Below the pieces are notes generated by a model. The model was given only the letters and a program-made list of their open reading frames with translations. It ran no database searches and had not been told where the DNA came from. Positions 8,177 to 36,342 of a DNA stretch of 36,594 nucleotides are shown piece by piece. A program made the translations under genes and the position numbers. The stretch's first letter is position 1. The number at the start of each line of letters is the position of its first letter. Source of the DNA: Deltaproteobacteria bacterium (GTDB lineage: Bacteria; Myxococcota_A; Polyangia; JAAYKL01). The DNA lies in assembly GCA_016935665.1 (NCBI GenBank), contig JAFGQN010000059.1, positions 1-36,594 on the forward strand, given 5' to 3'.

Positions 8177-10525
8177 TCATCCCGTAGCAGCAGATGAGGA
8201 ACCTCTGGCGGTTCGGCTATCGAGTACGGTGCGGATTCTGCTGCACAGATCCCTGGCTGTAAATGGTTTGGAGATAAACGGATGGGGCGAAGCGCTGACG
8301 CCGTGGGTATCAGTGAGTTCCTCATTGTGGCCAGACATGAAAATGACAGATGGGGAGCCAAATCGTGCGGTAATCTGTTTCACCATTTCAACGCCGCTCA
8401 TGCCCGGCATGACCACGTCGGAGAGCAGAAGGTCGATTCGCTCCTGCAGATGTTCGAATAGCACCAGGGCTTTTTTGGCATTTGCGGCCTGAAACACGCG
8501 GTAGCCAGCCGACTCCAGCTGCTTTTTAACCAGGTGCCGCACCTGTGCTTCATCCTCCACAAGCAAAATGGTTTCGTGGCCGTGCAGTGCGCTGCTTCTC
8601 TTCTGATTCTGTTCTTCGGTGCGCCCCGAAACGGTGCTTCTGGGAACATGAATGCAAAACGTGGTGCCGTCATTGACTCTGGATGAGACATCAATGAAAC
8701 CGTTGTTCTGCTGAACTATTCCGTACACCGTGGCCAAACCCAGACCGGTGCCTTTACCCTGTTCTTTTGATGTATAGAATGGTTCGAAAATATTTTTCAG
8801 GTTCTCAGTGGGAATACCCGTGCCCGTGTCTTTCACGGTAATAACCACGTATTCGCCGGGCCGTCGTCCCGCATCCTTTTGGCCGTCCGCATCGGATATG
8901 TTTTTAGTTTCAGTGTGAATGTGAATGGTGCCCCCTTTGGGCATGGCGTCCCGGGCATTGACCAGCAGATTGGCGACAATCTGATCGAGCTGGATGAGAT
9001 CCATGGTGACGTTACATGGGGCATCGCTATTGGAGATATGGATTTGAATATCTTCGCCTATCATTCTGGACAGCATTTTACAGGAAGTACTGATGCGTTC
9101 CGCCACATCGATAACCTGGGGATCGACAATCTGTTTTCGGCTGAATGCCAGCAGTTGCCTCGTCAGGTCCACAGCCCGGTTGCCCGCCTCCCGGATTTGG
9201 GAGGCATCCCGCCGGATGTCGTCGGTGGCGTTCGCATTTTCCTCAATGGTTTCCGCGTAGCCGTTTATCACAAAAAGCAGATTGCTGAAATCATGGGCCA
9301 CCCCGCCGGCCAGTCGGCCAATGGCCTCCATTTTCTGCGCCTGATGCAATTGCGATTCCAGCTGACGCCTGGATGTTTCGACTTTCTGGCGCTCGCTCAT
9401 CTCCTGTTCAAGCTGTTTCGTGCGTTCTGCCACCAGTTCTTCGAGCCTTTCCCGGTGTCGCGTGATTTCCTGGGCTGTTTTTTTTTGCTCCGTAATATCT
9501 TTGGCAATGAGCAGAAATCCGCGCAAATCTTTGTTCTCGTCGTACAGTATGGCGCCGGACAGCGAGATGGGAATCACCCGGCCTGTGGCGGTAACATATT
9601 CGGTTTCGACGTCCCTGCTTTGAAACGTATCTGCTTTTTTGGGGTCGAGTTCGCGTATCCATTCCGGGATGAGGGCATCTTTTGAAAACAGCTCAAGTAC
9701 AGATTTTCCAGACAGCGCGGATTGCGCATATCCCAGCATGCGAATGGTGGCTTTGTTCACCGTAATAATGGTGGAATCCAGTCCCACCAGCAGTAATGAA
9801 TCCCCCATTGTGGCGATGATGCTTTCAGCGGCCCTTGACACTGAAAGCTGAAACAGCTCATATTTCCAGAGGGCATACGCAATAATGGTATTTGAAAAAA
9901 TGAACATTATTACATCCAATGCGGGGATGGGCCATTTGTAGTGAGCCGTTAAAATGCCAACAACCATATTAACCGCTGGCGCCACGCTGGCAATGAGGAG
10001 AAAACGGCTCTGTTTCTTTTTACGAGGTTCGGATGCCGTGTGATAGGAAATGGTGTACAGAATGGCACACGCGACGGTCACCAGAAACATCCATATAAAC
10101 AGGAGTGTGCTCATTATGCCATCCTGTACCGTGTACTCCCATCCCCATGGTTGCTCCCTGGGAGGGCCGGTGACAGCGTGAAAAAAGATGTCCGAGAATA
10201 TAAAAACAGCGCTGGGCGCATATAGCGCCACGAGAAGCCATTTGCGTCTGAGCCAATTTCCAGGGCGAGTGAATGCCAGAGTCAGATGCAGCCAGGCGGA
10301 CACATGAACTGACCACAGCACATCAAAGCGCCACCACACTGCGGCGGCTTCAAAGCTGTCCGCCTGACGATAACCGAACTCCATCAGCGACGTGTACGCC
10401 ACGGACATTGTTACCAGCAAAAAAAGTCGACTCAGAATATTCCCGGTATCTCTGAAAAACAGAAATGCAGCCAGGAATACGGCAAAAACAAAAGACAGCA
10501 GCGATATGAGTGCGAAAACAGTCAT
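8177..10525 (-). CDS. Hybrid sensor histidine kinase with 7TM input, PAS and C-terminal receiver
   Basis: The protein has 782 residues from ATG 10525, chosen because GAGGAGG lies just upstream; the longer frame adds 29 residues before the first membrane helix. Residues 1-215 hold seven hydrophobic segments of the histidine-kinase N-terminal 7TM type. Residues about 230-345 are a PAS domain (GDSLLLVGLDSTIITVNKA). A coiled coil follows, then the H-box with phospho-accepting His411 in GGVAHDFSNLL. The ATPase domain has NLLVNARDAMPKGG, DTGTGIP and GKGTGLGLATVYG. The receiver domain carries Asp703 in LLLSDVVMPGMSGVEM. The kinase probably senses a membrane or lipophilic signal. No output regulator lies next to it, so it is an orphan hybrid kinase. 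Confidence 0.93.
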   Translation of the reverse strand: MTVFALISLLSFVFAVFLAAFLFFRDTGNILSRLFLLVTMSVAYTSLMEFGYRQADSFEAAAVWWRFDVLWSVHVSAWLHLTLAFTRPGNWLRRKWLLVALYAPSAVFIFSDIFFHAVTGPPREQPWGWEYTVQDGIMSTLLFIWMFLVTVACAILYTISYHTASEPRKKKQSRFLLIASVAPAVNMVVGILTAHYKWPIPALDVIMFIFSNTIIAYALWKYELFQLSVSRAAESIIATMGDSLLLVGLDSTIITVNKATIRMLGYAQSALSGKSVLELFSKDALIPEWIRELDPKKADTFQSRDVETEYVTATGRVIPISLSGAILYDENKDLRGFLLIAKDITEQKKTAQEITRHRERLEELVAERTKQLEQEMSERQKVETSRRQLESQLHQAQKMEAIGRLAGGVAHDFSNLLFVINGYAETIEENANATDDIRRDASQIREAGNRAVDLTRQLLAFSRKQIVDPQVIDVAERISTSCKMLSRMIGEDIQIHISNSDAPCNVTMDLIQLDQIVANLLVNARDAMPKGGTIHIHTETKNISDADGQKDAGRRPGEYVVITVKDTGTGIPTENLKNIFEPFYTSKEQGKGTGLGLATVYGIVQQNNGFIDVSSRVNDGTTFCIHVPRSTVSGRTEEQNQKRSSALHGHETILLVEDEAQVRHLVKKQLESAGYRVFQAANAKKALVLFEHLQERIDLLLSDVVMPGMSGVEMVKQITARFGSPSVIFMSGHNEELTDTHGVSASPHPFISKPFTARDLCSRIRTVLDSRTARGSSSAATG

Positions 10526-10645
10526 AGCCTCCTCATCCTCAGAACGAACGCAATTGCTGCAGCAGATGTATCGATCCCCCCAGCGAGACCTTGCGCGCCC
10601 GTTTTCCATCAAATGGAGTAGTTGTAACGTTTTGGTGAAAAACTT

Positions 10646-10903: not shown

Positions 10904-12613
10904 ATGAAAGAAAGTGCATTCATGAGTTATATTTTCAATACCATCCGTTTCAGCCTGATATTATTCACTCTTGCATCTGTTTTCGCATGTGGCGAAAAAG
11001 ATTCAAAACCCTCGCAGGCTGGAAATAATGTGGAAACCGACTCGCCGGTAGATTCAGATACTCATTCATTGGACAGCAGCCCCCCGACTCCCACTGATTC
11101 TTTTGGGCTGGTCTTTTCGCCCCCCAGTGGCACGTTCACGGGGACGAGAGAAGTCACCATTTCGCCGCGGGCTGGTATTGATGGCGTGATTCGATACACC
11201 GTCAACGGCGCAGCCCCAAACGAAAACTCTCCGGTATATGAAACCCCAATCGTATTGTCGGCCTCTTCAAAAGTTCAAGCCGCCATTTTTCAAAACGGCG
11301 AGACGATTGCCGAGGGCAGCGGCTTTTACGTGGCGACAACAGGAAACATTCGAAGTGATATTCCCATCGTTGTCCTTGACAATATGGGCAAAGGGAAACC
11401 AGGCAGTGACGACATGCCAACAATGTTTTTGGCGTTCGACACCGTAAACGGCATCGCTGACATCTCCGTACCTGCGCATGTGGGATCTCACGCAGCGTTT
11501 CATTTGCGTGGCCAATCCACCAGGATGTTTCCTAAAAGCCCATATCGCGTAGAACTGAGAGACCAAAGGGAAGAAGATATGGATTGGCCCGTGCTCGGGT
11601 TGCCGTCGGAATCGGATTGGGTCATGCGTGGACCGTATGTGGATAAATCTCTGATTCGAGACGCATTTCATTACGATTTGGGCAGAGATATTGGGATGGC
11701 ATCTCCCAGGTATCGGTTTTGTGAATTATATACGAATCTGGATGGCGGCGTTTTGGATGAAAGCGATTATCAGGGCGTGTACATGATCGTGGAAAATATC
11801 AAGAACTCAAAAAATCGACTGAATTTGAAACAGTTGCATCCAACGGATACAGATGCAGATGTAATTACCGGTGGCTATATCTTTAAATTTGAGTGGGATG
11901 CATCAGAGCCACCAGTGCTCAATTGTCCAGGACAGGAATACTGCTGGACCGAGATGGAGATTGTGGACCCTAAAGATATTACACCGCAGCAGGCGACCTT
12001 GCTTGCATATAAACTGTATGAATTCAGTTATGCCCTTCATACGTCGTCGCTGGAAACACCGGACGGTGGCTATGGTCAATATATCGATGTAATTTCGTTT
12101 GCAGATCAAATTATTATGAACGAGATAGGCAGAGAAGCGGATTCCTATCTCCGCAGCGCCTGGTTTTATATGGATAGAAATGGCCCTATCGTCGCCGGTC
12201 CGCTTTGGGATTACAACCTGTCGCTCGGAACGGGATTTGATTTCAACGGGATAGAAAATCTGGATACTGCGGGTTGGATGTACGAGGAAAATAACAAGCG
12301 GGATGCACCATCCAATGATTGGTTTTATACCCTGATGCAGGATCCGGAATTTAAAGCTGTTCTTGCAGAACGCTGGCGGGTGCTTCGACAGGGGCAGCTA
12401 TCGAACGACGCCCTGTCCGCCAGAATTACTCAACTGGCCGCACCGCTTAAAAATGCCGCGTACCACAATTTCCAGAAGTGGGACAATCTTCAGACACCGA
12501 CGGTTTTCATGGTCTTCGTGTCGCCAGTCAGTCAAACGTGGGAGGAGCAAATCGAAATTCTCCGCAATTGGCTTCTCACACGCGTTGCGTGGATTGATAC
12601 CCAATGGCTGTAG
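10904..12613 (+). CDS. CotH-kinase-like lipoprotein with chitobiase C-terminal-type domain
   Basis: The protein has 569 residues; an ATG at 10922 is an alternative start and neither has a good ribosome binding site. A signal peptide ends in VFAC, a weak lipobox. A Ser/Asp/Pro linker follows. Residues about 70-135 form an immunoglobulin-like CHB_HEX_C module (FSPPSGTFTG, then IRYTVNG). The CotH domain follows at about 185-510: FHLRGQSTRMFPKSPYRVEL, RGPYVDKSLIRDAF, RLNLKQL, GGYIFKFEWD, IIMNEIGREADSY and GPLWDYNLSLG, where the last Asp corresponds to the metal-binding Asp of this atypical kinase fold. Family members phosphorylate surface proteins (CotH in spores) or serve as secreted scaffolds. 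Here it would sit on the outer membrane. No partner is next to it. Confidence 0.88.
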   Translation: MKESAFMSYIFNTIRFSLILFTLASVFACGEKDSKPSQAGNNVETDSPVDSDTHSLDSSPPTPTDSFGLVFSPPSGTFTGTREVTISPRAGIDGVIRYTVNGAAPNENSPVYETPIVLSASSKVQAAIFQNGETIAEGSGFYVATTGNIRSDIPIVVLDNMGKGKPGSDDMPTMFLAFDTVNGIADISVPAHVGSHAAFHLRGQSTRMFPKSPYRVELRDQREEDMDWPVLGLPSESDWVMRGPYVDKSLIRDAFHYDLGRDIGMASPRYRFCELYTNLDGGVLDESDYQGVYMIVENIKNSKNRLNLKQLHPTDTDADVITGGYIFKFEWDASEPPVLNCPGQEYCWTEMEIVDPKDITPQQATLLAYKLYEFSYALHTSSLETPDGGYGQYIDVISFADQIIMNEIGREADSYLRSAWFYMDRNGPIVAGPLWDYNLSLGTGFDFNGIENLDTAGWMYEENNKRDAPSNDWFYTLMQDPEFKAVLAERWRVLRQGQLSNDALSARITQLAAPLKNAAYHNFQKWDNLQTPTVFMVFVSPVSQTWEEQIEILRNWLLTRVAWIDTQWL

Positions 12614-12641: not shown

Positions 12642-13088
12642 CTAGAATTCCAAAACAATGCGGGCCGTTGCCGGGTTGAAGTCTTTGCGATAGCAATAGC
12701 TGATGGCCCCCGGAGCTGAAAATACGCCGCGCACTGTATTGGATAACTCGATGGGGGGACTCATCCCTTTTTTAACAGCCATATCCTGCCAGTATTTTTG
12801 TTCGGCTGCTAAATTTATTCCCAATGCCTTGCTTATAAACTCCTGGCGCAATGATGTTCCCGTTTTGGCATGAATGGGTTTTACGCGGTTTCCCATAAAT
12901 GTGGTCATTTCTTTTTTAAATATTCGCCGAACCTCGGTTGCGGACAATTCGGTTCCTGCGAATTTGTGATTTACGATGACCACCAAATCGTCGGGACTTT
13001 CAGCCTGGACGGGCATGGCACTGGAGAATGAAAAACTGCACATAAGCCAATAAATACCTGATATAAATTTTGATTTGAATAGTTTCAT
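12642..13088 (-). CDS. Secreted one-lobe phosphate-binding-protein-like protein, copy 3
   Basis: The protein has 148 residues with a signal peptide ending near VQA. The mature part resembles one lobe of the PstS-like substrate-binding fold (PBP_like family): DDLVVIVNHKF, EVRRIFKKEM, VKPIHAKTG, LRQEFISKALG, AEQKYWQDM and NTVRGVFSAPGAISYCYR. ATG 13088 is preferred to 13094 because AAGGAG is then seven bases away. The mature part is clearly alike in copies 1 and 2, but this copy is separated from copy 2 by 164 bases and could have its own promoter. It presumably binds an oxyanion or a related small ligand in the periplasm. No ABC permease or ATPase is nearby, so transport is unproven. Confidence 0.8.
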   Translation of the reverse strand: MKLFKSKFISGIYWLMCSFSFSSAMPVQAESPDDLVVIVNHKFAGTELSATEVRRIFKKEMTTFMGNRVKPIHAKTGTSLRQEFISKALGINLAAEQKYWQDMAVKKGMSPPIELSNTVRGVFSAPGAISYCYRKDFNPATARIVLEF

Positions 13089-13191
13089 ACGCATTCTCCT
13101 TATGAATGATTATAACAGCGCAGCTCACCAATAGACAACAGGTGAAAAGATAAAATTCTATTGTGTATTCAGGATGTTATATCGGTTTATT

Positions 13192-13209
13192 TTGACCCGG
13201 GCGGGTCAA
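13192..13209. repeat. Seven-base inverted repeat between copies 2 and 3
   Basis: TTGACCC and GGGTCAA flank a four-base loop. It lies 43 bases after the copy 2 stop on the minus strand. There is no T tract, so it may stabilise the mRNA end or act as a binding site rather than terminate. Confidence 0.4.
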
Positions 13210-13252
13210 CTGAACATCAGGTACACGAATGTTGAACCGTATGAGACACGTA

Positions 13253-13696
13253 TCACAGGGACAATACGATCTTGGAAGTCGTTGGATTGAAATCCTTTCT
13301 GAAGCAGTAGCTGATTGCGCCAGGTGTGGAAAATACACCGCGCACTGTGTTGGTGAGTTCACTTGGTGGGTTCATTCCCTTTTTCACCATCATTTCCTGC
13401 CAATATTTTTTTTCTGCAGAGGGGTTCATTCCCAGCACTTTATTCACAAACTGTTGTCGCAATGCGTTACCGTCCCTGGCATGTATGGGTTTTACTCTGG
13501 TGCCGTGGAAGTTGGTAATTTCCTTTTTGAATATTCGTTTTACCTCTGTTAGCGACAAATTGTCGGCACTAAACCGTTTATTGGCGATTACCACCAGATC
13601 ATCGGTGCTTTCTGCCTGAGCCGGAACCAGGCTGAACAGCAATAAAAACGCGGTAAACATTACAACGATTTTCTTTGATTTCAGCAGCTTTAGCAT
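13253..13696 (-). CDS. Secreted one-lobe phosphate-binding-protein-like protein, copy 2
   Basis: The protein has 147 residues. ATG 13696 is chosen because AAGGGA lies seven bases upstream; a longer frame reaching 13741 would add a charged stretch ahead of the signal peptide. The signal peptide ends near AQA. The mature chain keeps every block of copies 1 and 3: DDLVVIANKRF, EVKRIFKKEITNF, VKPIHARDG, AEKKYWQEMMVKKGM and TVRGVFSTPGAISYCFR. The small differences between copies (Lys/Arg, Asn/Ala) are conservative, so all three probably keep their fold. It sits 76 bases downstream of copy 1. Confidence 0.82.
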   Translation of the reverse strand: MLKLLKSKKIVVMFTAFLLLFSLVPAQAESTDDLVVIANKRFSADNLSLTEVKRIFKKEITNFHGTRVKPIHARDGNALRQQFVNKVLGMNPSAEKKYWQEMMVKKGMNPPSELTNTVRGVFSTPGAISYCFRKDFNPTTSKIVLSL

Positions 13697-13772
13697 CTCA
13701 TATCCCTTTCGACGCTCATTTTGTGGACGTCTCCAATACATGTTATCGGCGCAACTCGAAGTTTATAAAGTC

Positions 13773-14219
13773 TTACAGCTCTAAAACGATTTTTGCGGTA
13801 ATCGGGCTGAAATCCCTTCGGAAACAGTAGCTCATCGCTCCTGGGGCAGAAAAAACACCACGCACTGTATTGGAAAGTTCGCTGGGCGGGCGCATCCCTT
13901 TTTTTACCATCATGTCCTGCCAGTACTTTTGCTCAGCAGACACATTCATGCCCAGTACTTTGCTTACAAATATATCTCGAAGAGGCGACCCCATTTTGGC
14001 ATGAATAGGTTTTACGCTGGTTCCCTTGTAAGTAGTCATCTCCTTTCTGAAAATTCGTTTGACCTCCGTGATGGTTAAGCTGGAATACTCAAATTTTTTG
14101 TTCACAATAATCAATAAATCGTTGGGACTCTCTGCCATCACCGGAGACTGGCTAAACAACAACACGCATGAAGCCAAAAGCAAGCCACCAATTGTTTTTC
14201 GATAGAAATCAGTATCCAT
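13773..14219 (-). CDS. Secreted one-lobe phosphate-binding-protein-like protein, copy 1
   Basis: The protein has 148 residues with a signal peptide ending near VMA. It shows the same block order as copies 2 and 3: NDLLIIVNKKF, EVKRIFRKEMTTY, VKPIHAKMG, VSKVLGM, AEQKYWQDMMVKKGM and NTVRGVFSAPGAMSYCF. AAAGGAG sits six bases before ATG. It begins 30 bases after the porin-like gene and is therefore almost certainly in its operon. Comparable short binding-protein genes next to porins are known from other Gram-negative bacteria, where the usual label is phosphate ABC transporter substrate-binding protein. The actual ligand is unknown. Confidence 0.84.
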   Translation of the reverse strand: MDTDFYRKTIGGLLLASCVLLFSQSPVMAESPNDLLIIVNKKFEYSSLTITEVKRIFRKEMTTYKGTSVKPIHAKMGSPLRDIFVSKVLGMNVSAEQKYWQDMMVKKGMRPPSELSNTVRGVFSAPGAMSYCFRRDFSPITAKIVLEL

Positions 14220-14249
14220 TGAAAACTCCTTTCCCAGCGCAATCGGCGG

Positions 14250-15824
14250 TTAAAAAGAAACAGCGACCTGGCTTTTTACAAACCACGTTTTTTCGTCGAC
14301 ACCTTCGCCGAGTGAATCCACACGGTACGCATTCGCCTTCAATGTGACATAGGGCGATGGCTTGATGTTTATTCCAAAGCGATAAATGCCAAACTTGCTG
14401 GTGTCGTTTGCGTCTGATAAATCCAGATAGTCCACGCCAACAAACGGGGTAATGGTCAGTGTATCGAACACTTTCTCCAAAGGCAGTTGGTACGCCAACA
14501 TACCGTAAGCGCTGTTCGTGATGAAGTCGGCAGCCCATATTGTTGTTCCGTAGGAAACTGTTTCCGGGCGAACCAGATATTCCGACTTGCGGGCGCCGGC
14601 CTCCCCAAACAGGGTCAGACCTTTCCAATTCAGTTTTAAGTCCACGGTGCCGATATATTCTTTATGCTTGTCGGTAATCACATCGTTTGAACGCTGGGCA
14701 AGGTCGTAATTCACATCATCCAGCACCTGGGTTCCGGTTTCGTCTATGCGATATTCTGTGATCATTTCGGTCTCAATGTCCGTGTATTTTCCGTAATATC
14801 CATAGCCGCCAAGAGAAATCAGCCAATCTTCGCCCGCCACTTGAATTTTGGTTCTAAGGCCAATCGCTTTATTATGGTCGGTATCAAAGAAATTTTCCGT
14901 TGGACCGCGACCATTTGAAAGGGTGACCGCATATTCCAGTTTCAGCAAATCCGTTGGAAAAATGGAACCAAATACCATCAGACCCGTCTGTGCCGTGGGC
15001 ACCACGTCCCAGCTGATAAGAAACGGCAACGCCACTGTCAATACCACCGGCGACCCATGATCTTCGTTCCAGATACCAAACGGCGTCAGATAGCGGCCCG
15101 CACGAATGCCAAACCAGTCTCGCGGCTTCCAGTCCAGATGTGCCCGTTCAATATTCACACCGCCCAACCGCGTGCCCCCTTCAAACTGATACTTGGCATA
15201 TGTATCGGTTCGCTCAAACCCTTTGTTGGGATCGGGATCGCCGGTGCGTGCTGTTTCCACTCCGTCGACGCGTGTCACCTGGCTCTTATTGGTGATGTTG
15301 CCATTGGGAGAATACGAGAAGCGCGTTTCCACCAGCGCCGACAGGGTTTCTGTCATCTGACTCTTCAAATAGAGATTTACGCCGGTTTGATAAAAAGAAT
15401 TGTACTTGGGTTGGTAATAATACGTGATGGCATCGTCGTATTTGGCAAATGATGCGGTATGACTCAAATCCAGAAAACCGCTGATTGTAAATTTTTCGTC
15501 TGCCGCGGCAGCGTTGGCCTCCATGACCTGCATCGATAAATCATCCCGGTCCTCCTTCGCCATTTGCTGCTGCTGTGAAAGCGTTTTGATTTGTTCCTCC
15601 TGCGCTTCAACTTTTGCCTGCAGTGCCTCGAGTCTCTCGGCGACAGTTGCGTTGGCTGCTGTGGCAGTGCCCGCATCTGTTTTGGCAGACATGGCGGTGT
15701 TATTGCCTTTGGCATTTGAGTCCGTCACGTTCGTTTTTTCGGCCTCCTGTGCAACAGCGTTCACCGCAAAAAACACAATCGTTAACATTGAAAATAGTAT
15801 GGTTTTTAATTCAATTGTTTTCAT
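14250..15824 (-). CDS. Outer-membrane porin-like beta-barrel with N-terminal coiled coil
   Basis: The protein has 524 residues. The signal peptide is cut after AVA (about residue 25). A Thr/Ala/Asn-rich linker leads to a heptad region at about 62-105 (ERLEALQAKVEAQEEQIKTL), a likely trimeric coiled coil as in porins that contact the peptidoglycan. From about 115 the chain shows alternating beta-strand pattern with aromatic ends (FTISGFLDLSH, AHLDWKPRDWFGIRAGRYL, TPFVGVDYLDL) and finishes with a C-terminal Phe (QVAVSF), the signature recognised by the BAM complex. It resembles OprO/OprP or phosphate-type porins in size and context, but the selectivity cannot be read from sequence. It begins 12 bases after the 12-Cys gene. 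Confidence 0.85.
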   Translation of the reverse strand: MKTIELKTILFSMLTIVFFAVNAVAQEAEKTNVTDSNAKGNNTAMSAKTDAGTATAANATVAERLEALQAKVEAQEEQIKTLSQQQQMAKEDRDDLSMQVMEANAAAADEKFTISGFLDLSHTASFAKYDDAITYYYQPKYNSFYQTGVNLYLKSQMTETLSALVETRFSYSPNGNITNKSQVTRVDGVETARTGDPDPNKGFERTDTYAKYQFEGGTRLGGVNIERAHLDWKPRDWFGIRAGRYLTPFGIWNEDHGSPVVLTVALPFLISWDVVPTAQTGLMVFGSIFPTDLLKLEYAVTLSNGRGPTENFFDTDHNKAIGLRTKIQVAGEDWLISLGGYGYYGKYTDIETEMITEYRIDETGTQVLDDVNYDLAQRSNDVITDKHKEYIGTVDLKLNWKGLTLFGEAGARKSEYLVRPETVSYGTTIWAADFITNSAYGMLAYQLPLEKVFDTLTITPFVGVDYLDLSDANDTSKFGIYRFGINIKPSPYVTLKANAYRVDSLGEGVDEKTWFVKSQVAVSF

Positions 15825-15836
15825 GTTGTCTTTCCC

Positions 15837-17138
15837 CTACTCGCAAGTACAGCCAGCTGTTTCTACGCCAAAATCGCCTGTTATGTATGCATCGAGCCAG
15901 CAGAGCGGCGATGGCCATCCCATGGCGGCGACGGCACTGCAATCACAACATTGTTGTCCGGCTGGACAACCCCCAACGGTGCAGTTTGATTGAACACAGT
16001 TTCCATCAACTGCAGTATCAATAGTATTGGGCAAACAGGTCGTCATGGTCCCGTTGCCGGTACAATCCGTATCCGTTGTGCATTCCTTCAGTGGAATCGG
16101 ACACGTGCATCCCGCGCCCTCCATTGCCGCCACCATCAACTCCTCGGTGCAAAGTGGCGATGGCCACCCATATTCCGGGTGCGAACTGCAGTCGCAACAC
16201 TGAAAGCCCGTCTCGCATCCGCCCGCTGTGCACTCGTCCTGTACACATATGCCAGGCTGAGCAGTGTCCAGAGCGTTGGGGAGACAATAATCTCTGGGCG
16301 CTTTGGTGGCGCAATCCGCCGATGTCGCGCAGCTGAATGCCGAACCCGAATCGGTATCGGAATCGGTTGCGGTGTCCGTGCCACCTCCGGTATTGGGGCT
16401 GCAGACGCAACCCGTCATATAATCAACAAACGCGTCCTCTGTACACAGTGGCGATGGCCAGCCAAACTGGGGTTGCGAAGTACAGTCACAGCACTGAGTC
16501 CCGGTGGGACAGTTGTCGGCAGTACAATCGTCCTGTACACACGTCCCAGGCAGGGACGGGTCCATCCCATTGGGTAAACAATAGTCAATATTGCCATTGC
16601 TGGCACAATCCGCATGTCCGTTGGCCGTGTTGCATTGCAGCCCAACAACGCCCCCGCTGGTATCTGGGGGATCGGTATCCGTACTGCCTCCCGTTACGTT
16701 GCTGCAGTTGCATCCGTAGTCTTCAAAAGTGCCGGCATATTCCGCGACACCGCAAATCGGTATTGGCCACAGTGCGGCGAAAGTCGGTGATTTGCTGCAG
16801 TCGCAGCATGCAAAGTCCGCCGATTGACAGCTGCCTGTTGTGCAGTTCGGTTTAGTGCACACACCTGAAACGTAGTCAGGTCCAAGCATGCAAAAATCCA
16901 ACTCTCCGTTTCCTGCACAGGTTTCGCCGGCACCTGGATTGCAATACAGGTTTAAAATACCCGCACCTGTATCCACTCCTTCCGCCTTTGTTACCCTGTC
17001 ATCGAAGGGCGTTCGGCCTCTGCAGCCGCCGTATTGGCTGTCGTATACCTGACCTTTGTCGCATCGATCTTTGTCACTAATGCTACAACTGAAAAATAAA
17101 AGTGAGAGTATCGGTATCACAATTTTCTGCTGAACCAT
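15837..17138 (-). CDS. Lipoprotein with four tandem 12-cysteine modules, first gene of porin operon
   Basis: The protein has 433 residues with lipobox FFSC (Cys18). After a short linker come four repeats, starting near residues 65, 170, 270 and 350. Each has 12 cysteines with nearly fixed spacing: C-x(5-8)-C-x8-C-x(10-12)-C-x4-C-x4-C-x(5-6)-CC-x-C-x(12-14)-C-x(11-16)-C-x-C. Repeats 2 to 4 share the words CLPN, CVQ, QCCDC and GWPSPLC. Thr/Asp/Gly linkers separate repeats 1-2 and 2-3. I do not recognise the module as a named domain. The even cysteine number suggests six disulfides per module in an exported, outer-surface protein. AGGAGG is eight bases before ATG. With the barrel and binding proteins downstream, it may be the outermost, ligand- or polymer-contacting part of the same system. 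Confidence 0.8.
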   Translation of the reverse strand: MVQQKIVIPILSLLFFSCSISDKDRCDKGQVYDSQYGGCRGRTPFDDRVTKAEGVDTGAGILNLYCNPGAGETCAGNGELDFCMLGPDYVSGVCTKPNCTTGSCQSADFACCDCSKSPTFAALWPIPICGVAEYAGTFEDYGCNCSNVTGGSTDTDPPDTSGGVVGLQCNTANGHADCASNGNIDYCLPNGMDPSLPGTCVQDDCTADNCPTGTQCCDCTSQPQFGWPSPLCTEDAFVDYMTGCVCSPNTGGGTDTATDSDTDSGSAFSCATSADCATKAPRDYCLPNALDTAQPGICVQDECTAGGCETGFQCCDCSSHPEYGWPSPLCTEELMVAAMEGAGCTCPIPLKECTTDTDCTGNGTMTTCLPNTIDTAVDGNCVQSNCTVGGCPAGQQCCDCSAVAAMGWPSPLCWLDAYITGDFGVETAGCTCE

Positions 17139-17881: not shown

Positions 17882-18400
17882 TCAGTTCCAGTTCGCTGGA
17901 AAGCCGAAACTGCATTCCATGTCACTGTTGCAGTACCAAATGCCTTTTTGGGTTATACCTTCAGGCGGTACGCCCAGTCCGTTGCAGTCTTCGTTATCGG
18001 TGCATTCTCTGTCAAAATCCGATTCAAAATACCATGTACATAAACCGTCAAGACACCCGCAACTGCCGAAAAGGGGTTCGCGTCCGCTGGTCATCAGGAG
18101 CTGATTGCAAAACGCGTCGTCATTTATTTCAATTGGCTCGGCGGCGCAGGTGGATTCGACACACCCGGTGACAATGCAGTCGGTATCATTTTGGCAGCGA
18201 TTTTCGATGCCGGCTCCCTCGTAAATGTCGTAGTGAGGGTCGTCTTCGTTCATATACACTTCTCGCGGATGTTCAAATGCGTCTGACGCGTCGTCGCGGT
18301 CGTCCGCTGCAGCAATTCGCTCCGATTCGCTTGAGGCGCTTTTGTAACATCCCGCAATCAGCAGCACAGAAATACATACAATGATTCGAATTAAAAACAT
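17882..18400 (-). CDS. Eight-cysteine-cluster lipoprotein
   Basis: The protein has 172 residues from ATG 18400; a TTG start at 18436 would lengthen the signal peptide. Lipobox IAGC follows a hydrophobic stretch. After an acidic linker the fold is cysteine-rich: CQNDTDCIVTGCVESTC, FCNQLL, GSCGCLDGLCTWYF, CTDNEDC and WYCNSDMEC. The first part matches the pattern of the eight-cysteine-cluster domain found in many deltaproteobacterial lipoproteins; the second part may be another small disulfide unit. It is exposed in the envelope. The function is unknown. No Shine-Dalgarno sequence is visible, so the start is uncertain. Confidence 0.72.
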   Translation of the reverse strand: MFLIRIIVCISVLLIAGCYKSASSESERIAAADDRDDASDAFEHPREVYMNEDDPHYDIYEGAGIENRCQNDTDCIVTGCVESTCAAEPIEINDDAFCNQLLMTSGREPLFGSCGCLDGLCTWYFESDFDRECTDNEDCNGLGVPPEGITQKGIWYCNSDMECSFGFPANWN

Positions 18401-18565
18401 TTTAAAAACTGTAAAACAGCCACCAGATAATAGCAACGATTAGCGGTTTTTGGGTTTCAAATAAATGTGAACAATAGAAAGTGGCCGATACCAACTTGAG
18501 AGACCCTGGTTCGAATCCACTCAATTTGTACATGCATTGGAATAACGGTTATTGCCGAAAATCAA

Positions 18566-34551: not shown

Positions 34552-36342
34552 TTACTTCGAATCAGCTGGCGATTTGCTGGCATCCCCAGTCCCATCGGTG
34601 GTGATTTCATTTTCATCCCCAACCGTTTCAGTGTCGTCTGCGTCAGAATCCGGCATCACTCTTTTGGGAATGGGAAGGGGGTTTCCGTCGCATGACCCCG
34701 CCGGAATGTTGGCCTGATTCTGCTCCGTGTCGAGTGCGATAGGTTGTTTGCAATCGGGATTGCCGCTGTTTTTCTCACAGAACATATCCTTGATTTGTCG
34801 TGGCGAACGCGCGCGCATATCATAGCGGTTGTTCAGCAGCCACCCCGGAGACCCGGTAATGCCCAGCGAGGACGCTTTTTCGTAGGATTCGCTCAGCAGT
34901 TCTTTTCCTTCTTCGCCCTCCGAACATTTTTGGATGATCGCGGAATTGATCCCGTTTCGGGCACATTCCTCCCATGCGGATTCATCTTCGCGACCGTTGT
35001 TTTTCTGAAACGCCTGATTGCGGCAGATGACATAATCCATGAATCGGTAGTTTTTGGCGTAGTATTTCTGCGCACAGATTTGTCGTTTATTCTCTGCCAC
35101 TTCTCGCGGACCGTGCAAAGCGGTGAGCTTGTCATCCTCGATTTTACCGATGAATTGCAGATGAAACTCGATTTCGGAACGGTCTTTTTTGAAATGCTCC
35201 AAAACGGGCATCATGGCGTTCACCGTCCGTACACCGTAATGGCAATGACTCATGACAAATAAATCGAGACGGTTTTTCAGTTCGTCCCGACATACTTTTT
35301 TGGCATTGCAGCTTTCATCCGCGCAGTCCACCTTCCCGTTGCCGGTATTGTCTACTTCGTCGTCGCAGATCTCTGCTCCAGGATCCCACGGGGGTTTACC
35401 TGTATCGCCAAGGGGATAGACATATTCGCCTGTGGTTTCCTTCTTTACCAGGTGGCGCTTCAGCCGGTTGAACCCGTTTTCCACCTTTTCGATGGCCGAG
35501 CCAAAAATAGCCACTGGCAGGTAGGGTTGACCGGAGCTTTCAAATACGATTTTGCCTTCCGGTTCACTATAATCCAGCGTTTTGATTTCAGCACCTTCAA
35601 ACGTGCTGCGAACAAATGCCATAAAACGCCTTGGGTTGCAGGAACGCCCCACACATCGCTTGTCCGTGACAACTGTGACCGGGACTTTGACAGGCTCTGG
35701 TATATTTTTGCAGTAGTCCGGTTTTACGCCGGTAAACTGTTCGCATATGGCTCTGCGAAAGGACGCTTCAGTGCGTCCGCCAGTGTAAGGTTCGCCTGCA
35801 AGGAAGATGGTGGGAGACCCCTTCGCCCCCTTTTCCTGAGAATACTTGAACGAATCCACCAGTAGCGTCTTGCCTTCGTCACCTTCGAGGCAGCTTTTAA
35901 CGGCGTTTGCCGGGACTTTGGCTTTTTGGGCGCAGTTTTCCCAACCCGCAGGGATTTTGCTCCAGTCTTTCACCTGGCATTTCAGGAATGAAATCCATTG
36001 GGCATTGGTGGCGTGTTTTTTGGCGCACAGTTGAATAGTGTTGCCGGTTATTTCCGATTCGCCGTGAATGGATTTCCACTCCCCTTTTTCCTCGCGGGCA
36101 ATGTAATGTAAATTCAGATCAATATTATCGCCCATTTTTTCCAGAATGGGAAAGAGGGTGGTCAGCACCTTGGCCGACCATGTGCATTTGGACATGATGT
36201 GCATGTCGAGTCTGACTTTTTCTATGACGGTATTCTGAGGTTTTTCGTGCTTTGTGCTTTTACTGGCTTTATCGCCACACGCCCCGTACAGAAACAGCAT
36301 CAATGCGAGCACGACAAATGGAAATGGCGTTCCTGGTTTCAT
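34552..36342 (-). CDS. Lipoprotein with three thioredoxin-fold (GILT/DsbA-like) segments
   Basis: The protein has 596 residues. The signal peptide ends in YGAC (Cys22), a weak lipobox. Segment 1 (about 45-225) starts at HIMSKCTWSA with Cys53 and has a cis-Pro region GSPTIFLAGEPY. Segment 2 (about 228-320) has CVGRSC and LPVAIFG. A Cys-Asp-rich metal-binding-like linker follows (EICDDEVDNTGNGKVDCADE). Segment 3 (about 360-540) starts at FVMSHCHYGV with Cys367 and has GSPGWLLNN. Segments 1 and 3 resemble GILT-like domains (QICAQKY, RQICAQ-type blocks) but keep only the first Cys of the usual CxxC/CPYG pair. It is likely an envelope thiol chaperone or binding protein. A Thr/Asp tail ends it. AGGAGA is eight bases before ATG. 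Confidence 0.78.
   Translation of the reverse strand: MKPGTPFPFVVLALMLFLYGACGDKASKSTKHEKPQNTVIEKVRLDMHIMSKCTWSAKVLTTLFPILEKMGDNIDLNLHYIAREEKGEWKSIHGESEITGNTIQLCAKKHATNAQWISFLKCQVKDWSKIPAGWENCAQKAKVPANAVKSCLEGDEGKTLLVDSFKYSQEKGAKGSPTIFLAGEPYTGGRTEASFRRAICEQFTGVKPDYCKNIPEPVKVPVTVVTDKRCVGRSCNPRRFMAFVRSTFEGAEIKTLDYSEPEGKIVFESSGQPYLPVAIFGSAIEKVENGFNRLKRHLVKKETTGEYVYPLGDTGKPPWDPGAEICDDEVDNTGNGKVDCADESCNAKKVCRDELKNRLDLFVMSHCHYGVRTVNAMMPVLEHFKKDRSEIEFHLQFIGKIEDDKLTALHGPREVAENKRQICAQKYYAKNYRFMDYVICRNQAFQKNNGREDESAWEECARNGINSAIIQKCSEGEEGKELLSESYEKASSLGITGSPGWLLNNRYDMRARSPRQIKDMFCEKNSGNPDCKQPIALDTEQNQANIPAGSCDGNPLPIPKRVMPDSDADDTETVGDENEITTDGTGDASKSPADSK

Follow-up and report, generated by a model that had tools for sequence, protein, structure and literature searches.

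We report a conserved, expanded envelope module of Myxococcota, in which a lipoprotein (LIP), an outer-membrane porin (POR) and a half binding protein resembling a single lobe of the phosphate-binding protein PstS (PBP) are encoded side by side, and which we describe here from a five-gene cluster of an uncultured, myxobacterium-like bacterium. The cluster lies in a 36,594-nucleotide stretch of Deltaproteobacteria bacterium (contig JAFGQN010000059.1), hereafter the window. Its likely task is to capture a substance outside the cell and to transmit to the periplasm either that substance or information about it. The more specific reading that we favor, and to which we give an even chance of being right, is a three-component outer-membrane/periplasm capture module whose half binding protein informs partners in the inner membrane or delivers to them. 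The cluster comprises the following features, from its first gene to its last:

15837..17138, minus strand: LIP, a 433-residue secreted lipoprotein with the lipobox ...FFSC18 and four tandem 12-Cys modules, with Asp/Thr-rich linkers between them
14250..15824, minus strand: POR, a 524-residue outer-membrane porin with a signal peptide, a predicted coiled-coil-like helix (residues 56-107) and then a 16-strand barrel
13773..14219, minus strand: PBP-C (lobe C), a 148-residue exported single-lobe PstS-like protein
13253..13696, minus strand: PBP-B (lobe B), the second lobe paralog
12642..13088, minus strand: PBP-A (lobe A), the third lobe paralog, behind a gap of 164 bases containing a promoter-like site
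13109..13138, minus strand: promoter-like site upstream of PBP-A, TTGTCT-18-TATAAT with TG before the -10 (extended -10), a consensus match only

All five genes are intact and co-directional and, with the starts used, are separated by 12, 30, 76 and 164 bases, in agreement with a preliminary description of the window; a purine-rich stretch resembling a ribosome-binding site precedes most of the five starts. The same description had suggested a separate promoter for PBP-A. A fitting site does lie at 13138-13109 in the last gap, but sites of the TTGTCT-18-TATAAT kind are no more frequent in the cluster than in shuffled sequence.

Homologs were collected via two routes, from whole genomes and by a barrel-profile scan of 84,980 species genomes, and they come from uncultured Myxococcota, including Polyangiaceae and Kofleriaceae. 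Of the 81 complete barrel genes at the loci obtained from the scan, 62 lie beside a lobe gene, 58 beside a lipoprotein gene and 47 beside both, where beside means on the same strand and at most 700 bases (lobe) or 1300 bases (lipoprotein) from the barrel gene. The three families adjoin at dozens of loci besides this one, in other genomes too, and the arrangement is not accidental. The comparison of gene neighbors in relatives that had been suggested thus supports the proposal that the cluster is one unit with a joint envelope function. Gene order varies, with LIP-PBP-POR in three loci (L124, L131, L132) and POR-PBP-LIP in three others (L113, L118, L175), and the association has therefore survived rearrangement.

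The three partners also diverge together. Across 46 modules, pairwise distances correlate at 0.77 for POR-PBP, 0.65 for POR-LIP and 0.50 for PBP-LIP, while the nine copies of the single genome PL23a_bin.40 give 0.55, 0.73 and 0.50, respectively. The POR-PBP value of 0.77 and the POR-LIP values of 0.65 and, within the single genome, 0.73 were reached by none of 2000 permutations. These distances are plain identities without correction for species relatedness, an objection that the single-genome set partly answers.

The window's family stands out by the number of copies, which reaches about 19 per genome. The barrel is found in 12 of its 14 genomes, one of which yields 21 barrel matches (two of them pieces of a single gene) along with 19 lobe matches, and copies within one genome are strongly diverged; in the rest of the class, a single-protein search found the barrel in no more than 19 of 179 genomes, each of which holds one or two copies. 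In the barrel tree, the window's family separates from the rest (99/98), and the window barrel groups with single copies of four genomes (100/98). Each of these four orthologous loci has one lobe, and the lipoprotein, detected in three of them, is of single-module length. The window lobes share 59-61% pairwise identity and at most 55% with the lobes of the orthologous loci. Since the orthologs have one of each and the window lobes are closest to one another, the four Cys modules and three lobes of this unusual copy look as if they were amplified on its own line around one barrel. Synonymous divergence (dS) is saturated among the three window lobes, so no dN/dS could be estimated. Elsewhere, three complete lipoprotein-porin-lobe modules stand in direct tandem (L059/L111, MO_167.B37), and one copy (L107:2270-9072) is directly followed by genes for an HlyD-type adaptor and an RND pump of the AcrB type.

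The AlphaFold2 model of POR (P0004; pLDDT 85.7, pTM 0.77) features the 52-residue helix 56-107 and 16 strands, counted from the DSSP string, and has no plug domain. Its best structural alignments are with OprO/OprP (Z 28.0 with 311 residues aligned, then 27.9 and 27.8), followed by the PorB family (24.4), in a search that covers the barrel and barely tests the first 100 residues, helix included; the porin-like barrel of the preliminary description is thereby confirmed as a 16-strand porin fold. At the sequence level, POR itself has no credible Pfam match, PF07396 (Porin_O_P) included, and its profiles did not reach OprP in the PDB.

The binding-protein paralogs had been called one-lobe from their sequences, and modeling agrees. 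The AlphaFold2 model of the lobe, built from an alignment of 67 homologs, has a pLDDT of 94.9 and spans one lobe, and residues 33-148 of PBP-C superpose on lobe II of PstS (4lat; Z 13.8, root-mean-square deviation 1.6 Å over 99 aligned residues). Likewise, PBP-B aligns to positions 91-184 only of the 267 in the PBP_like_2 profile, with an E-value of 8.9e-6 that just misses the cut-off. The conserved core of the lobe family consists of Trp100, Pro112 and Tyr131.

LIP (P0005) contains 51 Cys, exactly four modules of 12 plus three N-terminal residues (lipobox Cys18, Cys26 and Cys39). It is as unfamiliar as first described: no Pfam family matched LIP, and nothing in the PDB matched a profile of its relatives. 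Weak single Pfam matches of the Cys module to Dickkopf_N or EB were not accepted as membership. In relatives, the homologs are encoded beside the barrel, start with DRC...C and usually carry one Cys module. The host genome also encodes a 294-residue lipoprotein with two Cys modules of the LIP type and neither barrel nor lobe nearby (C198; L189:4971-5855), and a 798-residue lipoprotein-like protein in which a Peripla_BP_6/ANF receptor domain is followed by three Cys modules (C233; L190:5113-7509).

Neither the paralogous expansion nor the link between the porin-lobe pair and signaling proteins in other bacteria featured in the preliminary description. Among plasmid records, a Myxococcota lobe matched none and the window lobe five, with weak E-values; those lobes then matched 20-21. 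Sixteen annotated plasmid loci of Pseudomonadota were reached in this way, from about eight genera and including some near-duplicates and several close relatives. In 15 of the 16, at most 33 bases separate the lobe gene from a neighbor that is either annotated as a porin or unnamed but similar in size to one, the spacing being mostly 9-13 bases; most of the unnamed porin-sized proteins have no Pfam match. By hhalign, the Pseudoalteromonas lobe is homologous (98.5%, E 1.6e-15), and the porin is related at a lower probability (85.6%, E 5.6e-6). Eleven of the 16 loci also have a chemoreceptor or EAL-domain gene adjoining the porin-lobe pair, or the lobe, or separated from it by a single gene. Two Alteromonas plasmids (L198, L206) have the lobe gene and a porin-sized gene adjoining type IV CRISPR csf3/csf2 genes.

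Some Myxococcota copies have similar surroundings: five stand right before HAMP or Hpt kinases (L148, L149, L179, L091, L093), one precedes YfiR and a CHASE8 kinase (L136), and two have chemoreceptors alongside (L124, L134). The fusion of three Cys modules to a Peripla_BP_6 domain in the host genome is a further hint of a signaling link. For such reporting by a binding protein to a receptor there is a precedent: in Pseudomonas aeruginosa, PstS loaded with Pi binds the chemoreceptor CtpL (PMC4926252).

On the favored capture-and-report reading, the lipoprotein would gather or gate a ligand at the outer membrane, and the porin, probably trimeric, would admit it and extend its N-terminal helix into the periplasm. 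The half binding protein would bind the ligand or the porin weakly and act by protein-protein contact, with no phosphate clamping, either reporting from the periplasm to inner-membrane partners or shuttling to them. These partners appear to be products of adjoining genes in Pseudomonadota and in some Polyangia, namely chemoreceptors, histidine kinases or c-di-GMP enzymes; for the window's family they would be mostly unlinked, the module having radiated into many variants that presumably differ in specificity. We infer the physical complex, the surface position of the lipoprotein, the ligand and the signaling role from these associations and models.

Several points weigh against this reading, starting with the conjectural status of the ligand, complex and localization. 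Among the Myxococcota runs, just 4 of 30 in the outgroup and 1 of 43 in the window's family are closely followed downstream by a kinase or regulator gene, and these counts do not exceed the general local frequency of regulators; the case for signaling is therefore carried by the Pseudomonadota loci together with some of the others. The plasmid loci are themselves few and several are closely related. The window operon has no receptor gene, the nearest candidate being a HisKA_7TM hybrid kinase 2 kb off, behind a CotH gene on the opposite strand. A bolder form of the same idea, a novel type of trans-envelope receptor or uptake device of Myxococcota in which surface lipoprotein, trimeric OprO-fold porin and half binding protein form one complex, with about twenty specificities per genome and the half-protein as an exchangeable signal carrier instead of a ligand clamp, is possible but doubtful.

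The massive paralogous expansion with co-varying partners would also suit a module that serves transport only, that is, a porin repertoire for many solutes with a surface lipoprotein and a periplasmic acceptor, similar to SusCD in role and not in descent, and devoid of signaling. Most copies in the window's family indeed adjoin no signaling gene. However, no catabolic or permease genes recur beside the copies, and the signaling link in Pseudomonadota would require some other reason; we regard this explanation as unlikely.

The preliminary description had tentatively pointed to uptake or capture of an oxyanion such as phosphate. Put in full, an OprO/P-like pore and PstS-like lobes would concentrate the anion for a Pst transporter encoded elsewhere. 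The nearest folds of both the porin and the lobe are indeed phosphate proteins, Porin_O_P is matched by 5 of 77 barrel homologs (best E 6.7e-6), and the genome does contain Pst genes. The binding site tells another story. The lobe-II phosphate ligands of E. coli PstS are R135, S139, G140 and T141. In the HMMER alignment, INRAAGSGSR of Streptococcus pneumoniae PstS sits over INAxxGSxLR of the lobe family, in which R135 is replaced by Ala (81%), S139 is kept as Ser (67%), G140 is variable and T141 is replaced by Leu (86%). Only the Ser thus remains, whereas the host's own full PstS keeps RADGSGTT. That PstS is encoded on contig C135 (C135:1-12000, L191) at 9618-3859, in one row with a Porin_O_P porin, PstC, PstA, PstB and PhoU (the last two named by sequence and position), so that a complete, normal phosphate locus already exists in this genome; its porin is reached by the POR profile with a probability of only 3.4%, and descent of POR from it is accordingly not established. 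Moreover, the barrel region is acidic (net charge -13 in POR, family median -11), and ExtI, an OprO/P-family porin of Geobacter, shows no phosphate response (PMC5877670). Given the replaced ligand positions, the single lobe, the acidic barrel and the complete Pst locus, a classical two-lobe phosphate clamp is unlikely for the window module, and we consider oxyanion scavenging as a whole decidedly improbable. An Arg found right after the T141 position in 97% of the lobe family lies at a helix start behind the Gly-Ser turn, and some other anion may bind at this Gly-Ser-Arg helix end.

A structural role, in which the N-terminal helix of the porin, together with the lobe, anchors the outer membrane or aids porin assembly while the lipoprotein forms a surface coat, could draw on the 52-residue helix predicted ahead of the barrel and on the presence of OmpM1, an outer-membrane attachment porin, among the Foldseek matches. 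It seems very unlikely, as the many diverged copies per genome and the conserved lobe core suggest ligand- or partner-specific roles and the Pfam search found no peptidoglycan-binding domain. Surface variation, with the copies as diversified receptors or decoys under phage or predator pressure and the lobe as a leftover partner, would account for the expansion and the strong divergence among copies of one genome, but can hardly be upheld against partners that co-vary as units, a lobe that retains its fold and conserved core, and a porin-lobe pair old enough to occur in Pseudomonadota as well.

The favored capture-and-report module can be set beside several known systems. Like PstS (PF12849/TIGR02136), its lobe has the lobe-II fold and a Gly-Ser turn with the almost invariant Arg behind it; unlike PstS, the window proteins fall below the PF12849/TIGR02136 cut-offs, and neither PstCAB nor, as first described, any other ABC permease or ATPase is encoded beside the cluster. 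POR shares the 16-strand barrel of OprO/OprP (PF07396), whose pores are marked by an arginine ladder and a lysine cluster, at more than 3 Z units above other porins, and differs in its net acidic charge, lack of a Pfam match, long N-terminal helix and co-encoded lipoprotein and lobe. The Pseudomonadota loci, which combine a porin, a small 'phosphate ABC transporter substrate-binding protein' and a chemoreceptor, resemble the module in the homologous lobe, the related porin and the close spacing, but have no annotated lipoprotein, an adjoining receptor and few copies. By its description, ExtI of Geobacter sulfurreducens is comparable as a porin of a former deltaproteobacterium, weakly related to Porin_O_P and not phosphate-responsive; in contrast to POR, it belongs to a cytochrome and rhodanese cluster tied to selenite/tellurite reduction (PMC5877670). 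SusCD and MtrCAB offer a similar general layout of surface lipoprotein and barrel, with a periplasmic partner as well in MtrCAB; SusC is a TonB-dependent 22-strand barrel with a plug, and POR is neither. A heme-based porin-cytochrome conduit (MtrCAB/Pcc) was rejected since no CxxCH occurs in the lipoprotein, barrel or lobe sequences.

The module is not described in the literature searched, mostly papers accessible without subscription. Porin and lobe are already annotated as a pair for which we found no function, and the amplified form that includes a lipoprotein appears to be new. Judging from the family studied here, the name 'phosphate ABC transporter substrate-binding protein' is probably misleading in several Proteobacteria, where it designates a half binding protein with most phosphate ligands gone. 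The lipoprotein and the expansion in Myxococcota point to a repertoire of specificities. If true, the capture-and-report idea would show how a porin can share in sensing, in addition to correcting a widespread annotation.

Other genes of the window were recorded around the cluster. A secreted protein of the CotH kinase family that has a chitobiase C-terminal-like domain (10904-12613) is convergent with the module, and the hybrid histidine kinase mentioned above (8177-10612; HisKA_7TM sensor, PAS and receiver domains) lies beyond it on the module's strand. Upstream of the module, 17882-18436 encodes a further Cys-rich secreted protein, probably a lipoprotein, without a Pfam match, and at 34552-36342 a 596-residue protein matches GILT-type and DSBA-type thiol reductases.

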